DNA of 64,000 nt from assembly GCA_029260295.1 (NCBI GenBank), contig JAJDDN010000008.1:868001-932000 (forward strand), written 5' to 3'. Under the pieces are notes generated by a model. That model searched no databases, was not told where the DNA came from, and saw nothing but the letters and a program-made list of their open reading frames with translations. Each line of letters begins with the position of its first letter. Position 1 is the stretch's first letter. Shown here one piece after another: positions 413 to 35,143 of this stretch. The position numbers and the translations under genes are program-made. Source of the stretch: Phycisphaerales bacterium. Its GTDB lineage: Bacteria > Planctomycetota > Phycisphaerae > Phycisphaerales > UBA1924.

Positions 413-451
413 CGGGTGCCACTACTCGCCGCTTCGGCGCAGTAGTGTCTT
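413..451 (-). repeat. GAAGAC/GGCACCCGG hairpin element, stem class ACTACT
   Basis: On the + strand it reads CGGGTGCC, stem ACTACT, loop with CGCCGCTTCGGCGC, stem AGTAGT, then GTCTT. Same stem class as the copies at 6683 and 6844. It lies 20 bp upstream of the ribD start, so it sits in the 5' gap of that gene. Confidence 0.7.
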
Positions 452-453
452 TT

Positions 454-590
454 CTCCTCCCCCAGGCCTCTTGGGGGGCGGGGGAGGTGTCCGCAAAGCG
501 GACGGAGGGGGTCTTCACTTCGAGGGCTCTTACTCCTCCCCCGTCAGGACGGGGGAGGTGGCCGAGTCTTCGAGGTCGGAGGGGGTCTTT
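454..590. repeat. Two tandem copies of a second palindromic repeat family
   Basis: Units at 454-516 and 531-590 share the frame CTCCTCCCCC, hairpin, GGGGGAGGTG, second hairpin, CGGAGGGGGTCTT. The internal hairpin arms differ between the two units (GTCCGC..GCGGAC in the first; a CCGAGTCTTCGAGGTCGG arrangement in the second). Similar CTCCTCCCCC..GGAGGGGGT repeats are known from many bacterial genomes. Read on the minus strand both units begin with (G)AAGACCCCCTCCG, so they share the AAGACC edge of the main hairpin family here. With the hairpin at 413 this fills most of the gap 393-697; I see no gene in it. Confidence 0.65.
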
Positions 591-1103: not shown

Positions 1104-1142
1104 CCGGTGCCCTCCTTCGACCGCTTCGGCGAAGGAGGTCTT
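1104..1142 (-). repeat. GAAGAC/GGCACCCGG hairpin element, stem class CCTCCTTCG
   Basis: Reads CCGGTGCC, arm CTCCTTCG, loop ACCGCTTCGG, arm CGAAGGAG, GTCTT on the + strand. Same stem class as copies at 6641, 6801 and 17681 but inverted. Confidence 0.7.
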
Positions 1143-1159
1143 GGTAGTCCAAGAACGAT

Positions 1160-1206
1160 CGGGTGCCCTTACTCGCCGTCTTTGGGGGGCGGCGCAGTGA
1201 GGTCTT
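1160..1206 (-). repeat. GAAGAC/GGCACCCGG hairpin element, partly decayed
   Basis: CGGGTGCC edge, arms CTTACT and AGTGAG, edge GTCTTC. The loop is longer and contains GGGGGGCGG. Confidence 0.6.
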
Positions 1207-1237
1207 CTCTTAAAACTACACAACCACCAAACCCCAT

Positions 1238-1283
1238 CGGGTGCCCTGCTTACGCCCGATGTCTTCATCGGGCGTAAGCAGAT
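1238..1283 (-). repeat. GAAGAC/GGCACCCGG hairpin element, 15-bp stem class
   Basis: CGGGTGCC edge followed by a perfect 15-bp inverted repeat (CTGCTTACGCCCGAT / ATCGGGCGTAAGCAG). Here GTCTTC forms the loop instead of the edge. A half-decayed relative lies at 6577. Confidence 0.7.
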
Positions 1284-1312: not shown

Positions 1313-1353
1313 GGGTGGCGTGGAGGTGTCGTCTTCGACTCCTCCACGATCTT
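1313..1353 (-). repeat. Hairpin element, stem class GTGGAGG
   Basis: GGGTGGC edge, arms GTGGAGG and CCTCCAC, loop TGTCGTCTTCGACT, then GATCTT. Edge is one or two bases away from the consensus. Confidence 0.6.
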
Positions 1354-1370
1354 GCCCACTCCCCCACACC

Positions 1371-6608: not shown

Positions 6609-6640
6609 ATTATTCGCACAGGTTGTTTTTTTGTATTTCG

Positions 6641-6725
6641 AAGAACCTCCTTCGCCGAAGACGGTCGAAGGAGGGCACCGAAGAAAGACACTACTGCGCC
6701 TAAGAATGCGAGTAGTGGCACCCGG
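6641..6725 (+). repeat. Two adjacent hairpin elements, first copy of a duplicated block
   Basis: 6641-6680: AAGA-ACCTCCTTC, loop GCCGAAGACGGTC, GAAGGAGG, GCACCG. 6683-6725: GAAAGAC, arm CACTACT, loop GCGCCTAAGAATGCG, arm AGTAGTG, GCACCCGG. The pair recurs at 6801-6885 with only a few base differences. Confidence 0.8.
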
Positions 6726-6738
6726 CCTTGTGAACTAC

Positions 6739-6781
6739 GAAGACCCGAAGGAGGATAAGAATCCTCGTTCGGGGCACCCGG
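6739..6781 (+). repeat. Hairpin element, stem class CCCGAAGGAGGAT
   Basis: GAAGAC edge, arms CCCGAAGGAGGAT and ATCCTCGTTCGGG (imperfect), short loop AAGA, edge GGCACCCGG. Its stem sequence is not shared with any other copy here. Confidence 0.7.
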
Positions 6782-6800
6782 CACCCAGTTCGTTGATTTC

Positions 6801-6885
6801 GAAGACCTCCTTCGCCGAAGATGGTCGAAGGAGGGCACCGGAGAAAGACACTACTGCGCCTAAGAAGGCGAGTAGTGGCACCCGG
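6801..6885 (+). repeat. Two adjacent hairpin elements, second copy of the duplicated block
   Basis: GAAGACCTCCTTC, loop GCCGAAGATGGTC, GAAGGAGG, GCACCGG followed by AAAGAC, CACTACT, GCGCCTAAGAAGGCG, AGTAGTG, GCACCCGG. It differs from 6641-6725 mainly by C/T in the first loop and T/G in the second. Confidence 0.8.
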
Positions 6886-9997: not shown

Positions 9998-10046
9998 AAA
10001 ACCTCCTTCGCCGAAGATGCCCCCCAAGTCGAACGAGGGTACCGGG
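9998..10046 (+). repeat. Degenerate hairpin element, stem class CCTCCTTCG
   Basis: AAAACCTCCTTCGCCGAAGA, then GTCGAACGAGGGTACCGGG. The left arm and loop core are kept, while the right arm is interrupted by CCCCCCAA and has lost full pairing. Confidence 0.5.
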
Positions 10047-17652: not shown

Positions 17653-17680
17653 TTTGGTTTGAGTGAGGGTTCGCCTTACT

Positions 17681-17720
17681 AAGACCTCCTTCGCCGAAGA
17701 CGGTCGAAGGAGGGCACCGG
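17681..17720 (+). repeat. GAAGAC/GGCACCCGG hairpin element, stem class CCTCCTTC
   Basis: AAGAC, arm CTCCTTC, loop GCCGAAGACGGTC, arm GAAGGAG, GGCACCGG. Located 28 bp after the stop of the carboxyltransferase gene, where it could act as its 3' end. Confidence 0.75.
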
Positions 17721-17730
17721 ATGAATACAA

Positions 17731-17771
17731 GAGAAGCCACTACTACGCCGAAACAACGAATGGTGGCACCC
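17731..17771 (+). repeat. Hairpin element, stem class CCACTACT, partly decayed
   Basis: GAGAAG, arm CCACTACTACG, loop CCGAAACAA, arm CGAATGGTGG, GCACCCG. Follows the previous element, repeating the two-hairpin order seen at 6641 and 6801. Confidence 0.65.
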
Positions 17772-21271: not shown

Positions 21272-22027
21272 ATGAGTGAACTTGCATTGCTGAGGACTGA
21301 GGGACGGATTGCTACTTTGACCATGAATCGGGGGGAGGCGCGGAACTCGATGTCGCTGGGGTTGCTTGAGGCGATGCACAGCCGGGTGGATGAGTTGGCT
21401 GACACAGACTGTTCGGTTTTGGTGTTGACTGGGGCTGGGAAGTCTTTTTGTGCGGGGATGGATTTGAAGGCGGTGGTGATTGAGGTTTCGGGGGATGCTT
21501 CGCTTGGGGAAAAATTGTTGACGAGTTTGGCGGAACTTACGATGAAGATTCGGTCGTTGCCGATGGTGACTGTTGCATCAGTGAATGGGGCGGCGATTGG
21601 GGGGGGGTGTGGGCTGAGTTGTGTGTGTGATGTGACTGTTTCTCATAAAGATGCAAAGGTTGGATTCCCTGAGGTTGATTTGGGGTTGTGTCCGGCGGTG
21701 ATTGCTCCTTGGGTGGTGGCGAAGATGGGGGCCGGGCGGGCGCGGATGGCGATGTTGATGGGGGGGATTATGTCTGGGACGCGGGGGCATGAGCTTGGGT
21801 TGATTGATTATTTGGCGGCGGATCGGGAGGGGCTTGAATCGTTGACGACTGAGATTGCGGAGCGGTTGGCATCTGGGGGGCCGAAGGCTTTGGCGGCGAC
21901 GAAGGATTTGTTGAATGTGATTGATGGGACGGTGGATCCTGCGATGGTTCTGCGTGGGGCGAAGTTGAGTGCGGGGGTTCTTGGGACGGCGGAGGCTCAG
22001 GCGGTGTTGATGGCTCGGTTGGGGTGA
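21272..22027 (+). CDS. Enoyl-CoA hydratase/isomerase (methylglutaconyl-CoA hydratase-like)
   Basis: 251 residues. Crotonase signatures VLTGAGKSFCAGMDLKAV at about 51-68 and SVNGAAIGGGCGLSCVCDVTVS at about 106-127, plus the trimer region VGFPEVDLGLCPA. GGAG lies in front of the ATG (GGATGGAGGTATGAG). Neighbours with carboxyltransferase and HMG-CoA lyase genes suggest a leucine-pathway hydratase (LiuC role), though the usual second catalytic Glu is not obvious. The stop codon is overlapped by the GAAGAC edge of a hairpin repeat. Confidence 0.8.
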   Translation: MSELALLRTEGRIATLTMNRGEARNSMSLGLLEAMHSRVDELADTDCSVLVLTGAGKSFCAGMDLKAVVIEVSGDASLGEKLLTSLAELTMKIRSLPMVTVASVNGAAIGGGCGLSCVCDVTVSHKDAKVGFPEVDLGLCPAVIAPWVVAKMGAGRARMAMLMGGIMSGTRGHELGLIDYLAADREGLESLTTEIAERLASGGPKALAATKDLLNVIDGTVDPAMVLRGAKLSAGVLGTAEAQAVLMARLG

Positions 22028-22068
22028 AGACATGGAGAAGCCGAAGACGGCGTCTCCATGGCACCCGG
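22026..22068 (+). repeat. GAAGAC/GGCACCCGG hairpin element, stem class CATGGAGA
   Basis: GAAGAC, arm CATGGAGA, loop AGCCGAAGACGGCG, arm TCTCCATG, GCACCCGG. Its first bases overlap the TGA stop of the preceding gene. Confidence 0.8.
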
Positions 22069-22098
22069 CGGTGTTGGGGTGAGATGAGAAGAAAAGAC

Positions 22099-22140
22099 AA
22101 AGACATGGCTTGCCGAAGACGGTCAAGCCATGGCACCCGG
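22099..22140 (+). repeat. GAAGAC/GGCACCCGG hairpin element, stem class CATGGCTTG
   Basis: AAAGAC, arm CATGGCTTG, loop CCGAAGACGGT, arm CAAGCCATG, GCACCCGG. Same edges and loop as the element 31 bp upstream but with changed, still perfectly pairing, inner stem bases. Confidence 0.8.
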
Positions 22141-22187
22141 CAAGACAAGATAGGTCAGAGGGGGAGTAGGGAAGAGGAGAAGTCTGG

Positions 22188-22232
22188 GAGCCCTCACCCC
22201 GGCCCTCTCCCATCAGAATGGGAGAGGGAGGA
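22188..22232 (+). repeat. GCCCTCACCCCGGCCCTCTCCC-type palindromic repeat
   Basis: GAGCCCTCACCCCGGCCC then TCTCCCATCAGAATGGGAGA and GGGAGG. Inverted relative to the copy at 1012. Apart from the three repeats, the gap 22028-22386 shows no gene. Confidence 0.7.
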
Positions 22233-22386
22233 AGAGAAGGCCTGATTTGTGGAGGGATTCAGGGGAGGATTCTGGGTGTCAATTTGGGGGTGGGTTGCAT
22301 ATGATCCGTGACCGATGGAGCTGCGGATCCGTGCGGTGATTGTTGCACAAATGCACGATCCTCCTCCGCAAGAGTGAGACATTCCT

Positions 22387-33400: not shown

Positions 33401-34042
33401 CCGAAGTTTGAAGAGCTGAAGGCGGCGTGTTTAGAGCGTGAGATTTTGAAACCCAAGGTTGTGTATGGGTACTTCCCGTGCAGCAGTGATGGGGATTCTT
33501 TGGTTGTGTTTGATGCTGAGGATCAGGACAAGGAAGTGCAGCGGTTTGCGTTCCCTCGGCAGGCGGGGAACAAGTGCTTGTGCATTTCTGATTTCTATCG
33601 TGATCTCGATGAGTGCAAGGCGCTCGGTCGGCGGGATGTGATTGGGATGATGTGTGTGACGATGGGGGAGACGATTAGTTTGCATACCAAGGAGTTGTTT
33701 AATTCGGATCGGTATCAGGATTATTTGTATTGGCACGGGCTCGGGGTTGAGTCGGCCGAGGGTCTGGCAGAGCTTTGGCACAAGCGGATCCGGCAGGAGC
33801 TTGGGTTTGGGCATGAGGATTCGAGCAGTATCCCGCAGTTGTTCCAGCAGAAATACCGGGGATCGCGGTACTCGTTTGGGTACCCAGCGTGCCCGGATAT
33901 GAGTGCGCATACCACGATGTGGGAGCTGCTTGATCCGACACGGATTGGGTGCGATCTCACTGAGAACTATCAGATTGATCCGGAGCAGTCGACCTGTGCG
34001 ATTGTTTCACATCATCCCGAGGCGCGGTACTTTAATGCGTGA
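30485..34042 (+). CDS. metH: Cobalamin-dependent methionine synthase MetH
   Basis: About 1185 residues, a full-length four-module enzyme. Module 1: homocysteine/zinc domain (VWDGAMGTQIHGLDL; zinc Cys pair in IGGCCGTSPAHI). Module 2: pterin/methyltetrahydrofolate domain (IIGERCNSSGSRKFKRLL). Module 3: cobalamin domain with the lower-ligand motif GDVHDIGKNLVDI near residue 752 and LSGLLVKSVNVM. Module 4: SAM-dependent reactivation domain (KVVYGYFPCSSDGDSL; RYSFGYPACPD). It methylates homocysteine to methionine. The ATG at 30485 has AGGA 9-12 bp upstream; an upstream ATG at 30449 is less likely. No cobalamin riboswitch is recognisable in the 150 bp before it. Confidence 0.96.
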   Translation: MPKTTQTVEHPLLALLKTKVLVWDGAMGTQIHGLDLDIDTHYQGCENCTDILSLSCPEEIGDIHRSYLRAGADVVSTNTFGAAAHVLGEFDRGDDARALSKSAAAIARAACDEFSTEDQPRFVAGSLGPGTKLITLGQIGFDELRDSYAVAAMGLIEGGVDVVLIETCQDLLQIKCAVQSVRQAEAELGRDAGSVLIFVSVTIEQTGTMLVGSSIEAAIEALRPLPIAALGLNCATGPVEMMNHVRTLAEKWDRPITVMPNAGLPVLEEGQTVYPLDPDGFTKAVRPLIDEGLVDAIGGCCGTSPAHIEKLRAYVDSMEKVARPEPVVVPSCSSLYSAVEYRQDLSFLIIGERCNSSGSRKFKRLLEEEDFDGIVSLARQQVRDGSHVLDINVDVAGRDNARDMHEVVSRIVKSVDAPLMLDSTNPKVILAGLKAAAGKCIINSANFEDGDEKFDELCAMAKQFGAGLVIGTIDEDIENAMARTADRKLSIATRAIERAVSVHGLLVSDLFIDPLVLPVSTGMESDRRSGSALIEGTRRICEAFPEVQTTCGLSNVSFGLKPAARVVINAVLLHELVEAGMSSAILHASKITPLHRIDDSLKGAAVDLLMDRRAEGVGGTGLPEGVTDEKHDPLSHLIELFTDEEEQSSAKVKVDLTLEEQLRAHIIDGEKEGLGETIAEALTKYKPLEIINEHLLAGMKTVGELFGSGQMQLPFVLQSAEVMKGAVAILEPHMEKDDVSSKGSIVLATVKGDVHDIGKNLVDILLSNNGFTVHNLGIKQPIDAILKAFNETKADAIGLSGLLVKSVNVMEDNLGLLNEAGVDVPVLLGGAALTRTYAEGHLSSVYEGDLHYAKDAFDGLDTMNAIVAGTSGELIVAANERRDARNVNVAKHQAKIDGAKSTQTATLVRSEVSRDNEMPTPPFWGTKVIKEISLPDIFAYVNPTALFSVQWQLKRGKQEKAAYQAMLEDVARPKFEELKAACLEREILKPKVVYGYFPCSSDGDSLVVFDAEDQDKEVQRFAFPRQAGNKCLCISDFYRDLDECKALGRRDVIGMMCVTMGETISLHTKELFNSDRYQDYLYWHGLGVESAEGLAELWHKRIRQELGFGHEDSSSIPQLFQQKYRGSRYSFGYPACPDMSAHTTMWELLDPTRIGCDLTENYQIDPEQSTCAIVSHHPEARYFNA

Positions 34043-34057
34043 AGAGTGAAACCTGAT

Positions 34058-34091
34058 GGTGCCCTCCTTTATCCCGCAGGGTAAAGGAGGA
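34058..34091 (-). repeat. Hairpin element, stem class CCTCCTTTA
   Basis: GGTGCCCTCCTTTA, loop TCCCGCAGGG, TAAAGGAGG. Starts 16 bp after the metH stop; it is the left half of an inverted pair with 34112-34150. Confidence 0.7.
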
Positions 34092-34111
34092 TTCGGCGGT
34101 ACAGGTTTATC

Positions 34112-34150
34112 AAGACCTCCTTTGCCCTACGGGTCAAAGGAGGGCACCGG
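34112..34150 (+). repeat. GAAGAC/GGCACCCGG hairpin element, stem class CCTCCTTTG
   Basis: AAGACCTCCTTTG, loop CCCTACGGGT, CAAAGGAGGGCACCGG. With the element at 34058 it forms a roughly 95-bp imperfect palindrome between the convergent metH and permease genes. Confidence 0.75.
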
Positions 34151-34159
34151 AACCCTGAG

Positions 34160-35143
34160 CTAGTAGTCTGATTGTGATGATCGTTGTTTGAGGAGGAGGA
34201 TCAGGAAGACTGGGCCTCCGATGAGGGCGGTGAGTACGCCGATGGGGATGCGGCCGGCGTTGGTTTCGATGACTCTGGTGATGAGATCGGCCCCGACGAC
34301 CATTGAAGCGCCGACGATTGCGGATCCAATAAGGAGCCCTTTGTGTCTGGGGCCGATGAGGACTCGGACGATGTGGGGGCTTACTAAGCCTACGAATCCG
34401 ATGGGGCCTGCGAGGACGATTGAGATGGTGGTGAGGACGCCCGCGCCGACGAGTTGGGTGATTCGGATCTTTCCGATGCGGAGGCCGACGCTTTTGGCTT
34501 CGTCGACGGGGAGGGCACCGGCGTCGTAGGACTTTGACTGGATGAGGGCGACCGCGATGACGAGGGCGGCGATGATTGATGCGATGATGAGGTGGGTGCT
34601 TGTTAAATCTTCACGGAGGTGGCCCATCATCCATCGGGAGGTACCGAAGCCTCGGTCGGGCATCTGGGCGGCGACGAGCATGGTGGCGGCTCCGAGGATG
34701 ACCGAGGTAATGACGCCGATGAGGATCATGGTGACGGGGTCGATGACGCCTCGGCGCTGGGAGAGGGAGTAGACGAGGGCGAGGACGGTGACGGCTCCGA
34801 TGAGGGCGGGGAGGGATGCTCCGCCGACGCTCAGGGTTGCACCAGTGATGAAGATGGTCAGGGTGACAGCGAATCCTGCTCCGGCGGACAAGCCCATGAG
34901 GTCTGGGGCGGCGAGGGGGTTTCGGAGGAGGGATTGGAGGAGGACGCCGGCGACGCCGAGGGTTGAGCCGACGATTGCTCCGGTCCAGATGCGGTGGATG
35001 CGAAGTTCTTGTATCAATGGGTCATCGGGAATCCCCCACCCCCCAAAGTGAAGACCGTTTGTGCCTGCCATGAGTCTGAGTATGGCGATAAGGGCGAATG
35101 CTACAGCAAGGAGGAGAAGGATGGTGATAGATTTCCGGTTCAC
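34160..35143 (-). CDS. FecCD/BtuC-family ABC transporter permease (orphan)
   Basis: 327 residues, GTG start. Nine to ten hydrophobic segments with the family motifs: IHRIWTGAIVGSTLGVAGVLLQSLLRNPLAAPDLMG near the N-terminus, then GPIGFVGLVSPHIVRVLIG, and GRIPIGVLTALIGGPVFLILL at the C-terminus. Such permeases import iron-siderophore, haem or vitamin B12 with a binding protein and an ATPase; neither is encoded here. Being next to cobalamin-dependent metH makes B12 uptake a reasonable guess, but the genes are convergent, not co-transcribed. Confidence 0.88.
   Translation of the reverse strand: MNRKSITILLLLAVAFALIAILRLMAGTNGLHFGGWGIPDDPLIQELRIHRIWTGAIVGSTLGVAGVLLQSLLRNPLAAPDLMGLSAGAGFAVTLTIFITGATLSVGGASLPALIGAVTVLALVYSLSQRRGVIDPVTMILIGVITSVILGAATMLVAAQMPDRGFGTSRWMMGHLREDLTSTHLIIASIIAALVIAVALIQSKSYDAGALPVDEAKSVGLRIGKIRITQLVGAGVLTTISIVLAGPIGFVGLVSPHIVRVLIGPRHKGLLIGSAIVGASMVVGADLITRVIETNAGRIPIGVLTALIGGPVFLILLLKQRSSQSDY

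Follow-up and report, generated by a model that had tools for sequence, protein, structure and literature searches.

The window, a stretch of 64,000 nucleotides of the Phycisphaerales genome, carries two short hairpins at the junction of an enoyl-CoA hydratase gene pair, referred to here as REP 1 and REP 2 (Table 1). On what we call the head strand, an element starts with 5′-GGGTG(C/G), continues with the hairpin and, in this genus, usually ends with 3′ TCTT; its length is about 40 nt. The lower arms of REP 1, CATGGAGA and TCTCCATG, pair at 8/8 positions and the arms of REP 2, CATGGCTTG and CAAGCCATG, at 9/9, while the two elements, 31 bp apart, have orientation, the loop CCGAAGACGG and the edge GGCACCCGG in common. 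The first-pass annotation of this DNA had described two hairpins of one layout at this distance, which is what lies at these positions. Its further statement that the arms pair perfectly holds for the lower stems and fails for the whole hairpin, where an irregularity follows the lower stem, namely an A-G mismatch in REP 1 and one extra T in REP 2. Most hairpins of this genus have such an irregularity between the lower and the upper stem. The stem of REP 2 differs by one compensated pair from CACGGCTTG, the stem flanking the RAYT gene L031.

REP 1 overlaps the end of the upstream enoyl-CoA hydratase gene (21272–22027), whose stop codon (22025–22027) is situated inside the foot of the element, and its insertion may have set the present end of that gene. 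The loop CCGAAGACGG reads GTCTTC on the head strand and thus has the same letters as the 3′ flank GTCTTC of REP 1 (22024–22065) and of other REPs with this loop, a repetition that might represent a second cut site or a trace of copying; other loops, ATTCTTAT and CCCGAAGGG, are also present among the REPs. Additionally, a second and unrelated dispersed repeat with the core CTCACCCCGGCCCTCTCCC adjoins REPs in the window at 22161–22240 and 1032–1082, with dozens of copies in the genome holding the window (G000) and in G001.

Table 1. Hairpin elements located in the 64-kb window
Position	Strand	Element	Basis or context
415..454	+	REP, CACTACT stem class	head and hairpin scan
1106..1145	+	REP, CCTCCTTCG stem class	head and hairpin scan
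1162..1209	+	REP, CCTTACT stem class, C/G run inserted in upper stem	6/8 pairs
1239..1281	+	Long hairpin, head as in the REPs, stem CTGCTTACGCCCGATG	missed by head and hairpin scan
1314..1355	+	REP, head GGGTGG, stem CGTGGAGG	class flanking RAYT gene L032
1369..1410	-	REP, CATGTAGG/CCTGCATG stem class	head and hairpin scan
6639..6679	-	REP, CCTCCTTCG stem class	head and hairpin scan
6682..6722	-	REP, CACTACT stem class	head and hairpin scan
6737..6778	-	REP, CCCGAACG/CCTTCGGG stem class	head and hairpin scan
6799..6839	-	REP, CCTCCTTCG stem class	head and hairpin scan
6842..6882	-	REP, CACTACT stem class	head and hairpin scan
17678..17718	-	REP, CCTCCTTCG stem class	convergent ORFs on either side, the first being a gene for a carboxyl transferase
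22024..22065	-	REP 1, head GGGTGC, lower stem CATGGAGA, 3′ TCTT	
22097..22137	-	REP 2, head GGGTGC, stem CATGGCTTG	
34058..34097	+	REP, CCTCCTTT stem class, without 3′ TCTT	between metH and the FecCD gene
34109..34148	-	REP, CCTCCTTT stem class	opposite orientation, same metH/FecCD junction

Twenty places in the window had been listed in the first-pass annotation, of which 14 proved intact in the head and hairpin scan, while the remaining six were altered, partial or decayed: the copy at 1160 contains a C-run insert, the one at 1238 is a longer hairpin, and those at 17731, 6577, 8264 and 9998 are partial or decayed as judged by eye. The scan returned 19 matches with at least 7/8 pairs versus 4.5 expected (maximum of 9 in 10 resamplings), including five unrelated to the listed family. 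Of the 14 intact copies, 13 had a 3′ CTT no more than 7 nt away, in a scan that prefers a fold followed by CTT when scores are similar. Some REPs, belonging to several classes, have a run of about six C inserted in the upper stem or the loop (window positions 1162–1209 and 9998–10046, G000:C2:94896, and G001:C112). The copies at 22024, 17678 and 34058–34148 are situated between genes, while the surroundings of the remaining copies are known from ORF lists only.

The genome holding the window (92% complete) contains a few hundred copies of the hairpin repeat. The exact AAGAC and GGCACCCGG edges delimited 61 copies, versus none for the reversed pattern, and a looser pattern extending from the head to TCTT had 377 matches, versus 53 for the reversed control, so that the distinct genome-wide family postulated earlier does exist. 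In size (20–50 nt), intergenic location and number (tens to hundreds), these palindromes agree with what is generally called a REP. A shuffle test on unfiltered copies was used, the stems being too unlike between classes for a single covariance model. The arms of the 61 exact-edge copies, which were chosen without any pairing criterion, paired at 6.85 of 8 positions, in comparison with 4.18 for shuffled partners (maximum of 4.80 in 2000 shuffles). Since the arms of unfiltered copies outpair shuffled partners, the stems vary yet stay complementary, in line with the selection for a foldable stem that had been suggested. The same copies comprised 27 distinct arm pairs, 19 of them with at least 7/8 pairs, and the genome had at least nine stem classes, the commonest being CACTACTG with 14 of the 61 copies.

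When considering other genomes, the exact-edge pattern was found to be a feature of the genus, with at least one match in 17 of 21 genus genomes and 16–76 matches in six of these. The 40 genomes outside the genus had 0–9 matches each, giving a total of 63 on the forward and reverse strands versus 42 for the reversed controls; these 63 were not treated as REPs, with a few of them resembling hairpins.

The search for a Y1-HUH (TnpA-REP) transposase that had been recommended in the first-pass annotation identified three RAYT genes in G000, all of the Y1 transposase family (PF01797) and each flanked by these hairpins. The encoded proteins scored 110, 94 and 98 bits against the NCBIfam model REP_Tyr_transpos (NF047646), all three above its cut-off of 80. 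Among 37 RAYTs, the HUH histidines H64 and H66, T21, the catalytic tyrosine Y131, N135 and P136 were invariant, and V137 and G140 were conserved in at least 90%, so that the Y1 HUH motif, the catalytic Tyr, the NP(L/V)(R/K)xG motif and the conserved N-terminal Thr of RAYTs are all represented. The structure predicted for the L031 protein (mean pLDDT of 94) had as its best match the E. coli TnpA-REP in complex with a REP (4er8, E 4.6e-10).

For the analysis of flanking hairpins, 98 RAYT loci were used. The genus set consisted of 22 of 33 PF01797 rows, leaving out eight rows located in ORFs of 1131–1440 aa (the two that were scanned being tRNA synthetase), L034 and L054 (no RAYT motifs by eye) and G002:C88. 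The other set consisted of 76 of 80 loci from named genomes, leaving out L065, L076 and L080, which repeat genus loci, and L094, which starts at a contig end.

In G000, two copies of the stem CACGGCTTG, inverted relative to each other, enclose L031, CCCGACGCG copies enclose L033, and around L032 the CGTGGAGG copies are interspersed with those of other classes. As typical examples among the other genus loci, L041 and L059 have the stem CATGCAGG, L047 and L060 the stem CCTGCTTTG, L044 the stems CATGGTTA and CGTGGTTA, L038 the stem CCCGC, and L050 the stem CCCGATGG. These genes are thus flanked by inverted palindromes, whose repetition in the genome was demonstrated for G000 and the genus. The flanks of the 22 genus loci contained 38 outward and 20 inward hairpins with a GTG(C/G) head (shuffled mean of 1.4); in the other set of 76 loci, 155 such hairpins faced outward and 53 faced inward (shuffled mean of 5.1). 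The orientation is not exclusive, considering the 73 inward copies across the 98 loci, and the E. coli rayT locus, taken as an orientation control, also has REPs in both orientations. Outward hairpins were present on both sides at 11/22 genus and 53/76 other loci; by record label, outward heads on both sides were found at 29/38 loci of Planctomycetota, 21/32 of Acidobacteriota, 2/2 of Fimbriimonadaceae and 1/4 of others. When both orientations were counted, a hairpin bearing this head was present on each side at 74 of the 98 loci, while 24 lacked it on at least one side, including eight that lacked it on both.

At the two-sided loci, the first 10 stem bases agreed at 9/10 or better in 63 of 74 cases, in comparison with 1.6% of cross-locus pairs. 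A stem could be assigned to 90 loci, counting L033, whose stem was mis-assigned by the automatic choice (the upstream CCCGACGCG copy has a worn head) and was left in the counts. RAYT identity and stem identity were correlated, with r values of 0.52 for 21 genus loci and 0.35 for 69 others, and none of 2000 permutations reached values as high. Genus RAYTs of one genome shared a stem at 9/10 or better in 0/11 pairs and those of different genomes in 22/199 pairs; because RAYTs residing in the same genome have no common stem, host identity does not explain the agreement. Taken together, the agreement between flanks, the correlation between RAYT and stem, and the lack of shared stems within genomes indicate, at the level of sequence comparison, that the stem follows the lineage of the transposase. 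The proposed rewriting of both arms is consequently unneeded as an explanation of the classes, since these go with the RAYT that they flank.

The commonest class, CACTACTG, flanked none of the 22 genus RAYTs analysed. Its RAYT may have been lost, may be encoded in the missing approximately 8% of the genome, or may be one that acts on related stems. Among the stems flanking RAYTs, the nearest to CACTACTG is CCCGACTG, found at L045, L046, L051 and L053.

The strand assumed in the first-pass annotation had to be reversed. When all 256 tetranucleotides were ranked by how many loci carry an outward-facing hairpin with that head on each side, GTGC came first with 50/98, followed mostly by its frame-shifted forms, while GTGG was found at 11/98 and GTAG, GGAG and CGTC each at 0/98 RAYT loci. 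The GGCACCCGG edge thus corresponds to the constant 5′ head GGGTG(C/G), which recurs across phyla, and the AAGAC edge to 3′ TCTT on the head strand. Of the two edges taken as constant, the former stays largely so; the latter is a 3′ site mainly of this genus, with CTT within 7 nt in 31/58 genus flank copies versus 23/155 other copies. A scan of the non-genus loci that did not require the head, and that sometimes chose a hairpin spanning two REPs, recovered an inverted hairpin at only 49/76 loci; in 30 of these, GTG(C/G) was close to the foot, including 18 with it placed exactly there, versus five at the opposite foot, which served as the control. G-T and A-C mismatches, compared in a hand-picked set with regard to which strand folds, numbered 8 versus 7 among distinct arm pairs and 17 versus 7 among distinct copies.

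Comparison of orthologous junctions revealed that relatives differ in the presence of whole elements. At the metH/FecCD junction (34042–34160), where G000 carries a pair of CCTCCTTT REPs, two REPs with other stems (CCTGCTGG and CCCGACTC on the head strand) are present in G007 and one with the stem CACTGCTT in G015, and G016 has one doubtful hit that is possibly coding, while no REP was found in 11 of 14 relatives with both genes together. Likewise, both REPs of the enoyl-CoA hydratase gene pair were absent from this junction in 9/9 relatives with both genes. These counts omit L156 (G001, metH/FecCD) as well as L144 and L145 (G001 and G007, hydratases), which consist of one gene block only. Different classes at one junction, each specific to a lineage, are what would be expected for mobile elements.

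We consider it highly probable that the hairpins are REPs of a GTGC/GTGG-headed type, likely mobilised as folded single-stranded DNA by RAYTs. Every RAYT is expected to recognise a stem of its own, and the diversity of the stems would reflect that of the transposases. The RAYT would bind the head and the hairpin on the head strand, cut near the foot, and copy or paste the hairpin elsewhere. The E. coli TnpA-REP cuts at CT beside the REP (PMC8266576), and the candidate site here, by analogy with that enzyme, is the CT within 3′ TCTT. If a RAYT lineage came to prefer another stem, spreading would be confined to elements in which both arms had changed, and the outcome would be families with constant tags and swapped but complementary stems. 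Mobilisation, the strand read and the cleavage site are accordingly given here as predictions. The number of RAYTs counts against this explanation, with only three found in G000 versus at least nine stem classes, as do the commonest class that flanks no analysed RAYT, the loci lacking a hairpin on one or both sides, the inward copies, and the limited yield of the scan that did not require the head.

Other explanations account for part of these observations. The hairpins could be kept as RNA, in the form of terminators, attenuators or mRNA stabilisers, with selection for the RNA fold pairing the arms and the RAYTs being incidental. The copies at 17678 and 34058–34148, which lie between convergent ORFs, and the far better pairing of arms than of shuffled partners are compatible with such a role, but Rfam matches in the window were limited to two tRNAs, and a function in RNA leaves unexplained both why the two flanks of one RAYT share a stem that differs from that of the next RAYT and why the head is constant across phyla. 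We regard this origin as very unlikely, and a later RNA role for the REPs as possible. We give even less credence to the descent of all classes from one ancestral hairpin by stem drift in situ, through compensated mutations or conversion, in which case the classes would be sub-lineages of copies and the RAYTs would have been captured nearby. Single-step intermediates do exist, for example CATGGCTT/AAACCATG between CATGGCTT/AAGCCATG and CATGGTTT/AAACCATG. However, drift would not be expected to make both flanks of a RAYT agree or the stems track RAYT relatedness rather than the host, nor does it fit with whole elements being present or absent at orthologous junctions and different classes occupying the same one.

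Least credible of all is that the hairpins derive from ordinary IS200/IS605 elements, as their ends or as remnants in decay (MITEs), or from integron attC sites. In favour of this are the Y1 fold and the hairpin-binding relatives IS608 and ISDra2. Nevertheless, the three G000 proteins, which exceed the RAYT cut-off, reached only 38, 29 and 25 bits on the IS200 NCBIfam model, all below its cut-off of 55, and the first protein shares only 41% and 50% identity with the other two.

The preferred reading, REPs mobilised by their own RAYTs, has precedents in gammaproteobacteria. Two reports, from 2010 and 2013, describe RAYT-REP coevolution with several classes per genome and compensated stems, in which REP classes with different, complementary stems are each tied to their own RAYT gene (PMC2817692, PMC3686654); the first-pass view that ordinary REP elements keep their stem is contradicted by these classes. 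As in Stenotrophomonas and fluorescent Pseudomonas, RAYT genes here are flanked by inverted REPs of their own class, many classes with one head and different complementary stems occur per clade, and copies are numerous and form mixed clusters (PMC2817692, PMC3686654). In contrast to the GT(A/G)G head of those gammaproteobacteria, the head here is GTGC (or GTGG) in Planctomycetota, Acidobacteriota and Fimbriimonadaceae, and the hairpin of this genus is longer, mostly with a stem irregularity (PMC2817692, PMC3686654).

The long hairpin, the mid-stem irregularity and the 5′ tetranucleotide resemble the y and z REPs (group 2) of the E. coli TnpA-REP (PMC8266576), and the RAYT fold is likewise that of the E. 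coli enzyme (4er8). TCTT might correspond to the CT dinucleotide that is cleaved beside the foot; the GTAG head essential in E. coli, however, is absent here, and while one E. coli enzyme serves three REP types, different RAYTs carry different stems in our set (PMC8266576). The GTAG and CGTC tags were described in 2013 and mark short palindromes that are also reported from Planctomycetes (R. baltica), as do the tags reported here (PMC3733652). Unlike in those superfamilies, the tag is neither of the two: GT[AG]G at the 5′ foot was represented by GTGG alone and far less often than GTGC, and CGTC REPs have no dedicated transposase, whereas these REPs are linked to RAYTs (PMC3733652). Atypical structures without GT[AG]G were attributed in 2018 to TnpAY1 subclasses 2.6 and 3 (PMC6006769). 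Judging by Table 1 of that report, the motifs of subclass 2.6 (NH[LIV]H, WQ, YIH[QN]NP, median of 179 aa) resemble those of our RAYTs, and both sets of hairpins are without GT[AG]G; subclass 2.6 is mostly from Bacteroidetes, and the likeness concerns protein motifs and not hairpin sequences (PMC6006769). Class 3 is found in Planctomycetes and Acidobacteria, as are these RAYTs, but has Y----Q and the foot CnGA, whereas our proteins and hairpins have other motifs (PMC6006769). Among the papers listed by full-text searches of open-licence PMC literature, none was found to describe a GTGC head or this family in planctomycetes. RAYT-REP coevolution is therefore known, and what appears to be new, from the sequences compared, is a GTGC/GTGG head common to several phyla.

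Such a head may deserve a superfamily of its own. We think it likely, with less assurance than for mobilisation by RAYTs, that these elements constitute a third, phylum-spanning REP superfamily marked by GGGTG(C/G), where each of dozens of RAYT lineages has evolved a stem specific to it. If so, this would represent a natural recognition code between single-strand transposases and orthogonal DNA hairpins. REP tags are no longer limited to GTAG and CGTC, and hairpin families that keep their edges but exchange their stems receive an explanation. For the study of how RAYTs read their REPs, dozens of RAYT-stem pairs under one largely constant head are now available, with two or three different pairs in some genomes, so that the covariation between protein and stem is open to mapping and to tests by swapping.

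Finally, the eight of the 33 genus PF01797 rows situated in long ORFs (1131–1440 aa) include L037 and L043 (G018:C68 and G001:C70), the two that were scanned, each of which encodes a tRNA synthetase of class I, judged by eye to be of the valyl type, with an internal Y1_Tnp domain at approximately residues 480–600 (Pfam scores of 32.6 and 27.3 bits, cut-off of 23), and in which the tRNA-synt_1 matches are split into two stretches.
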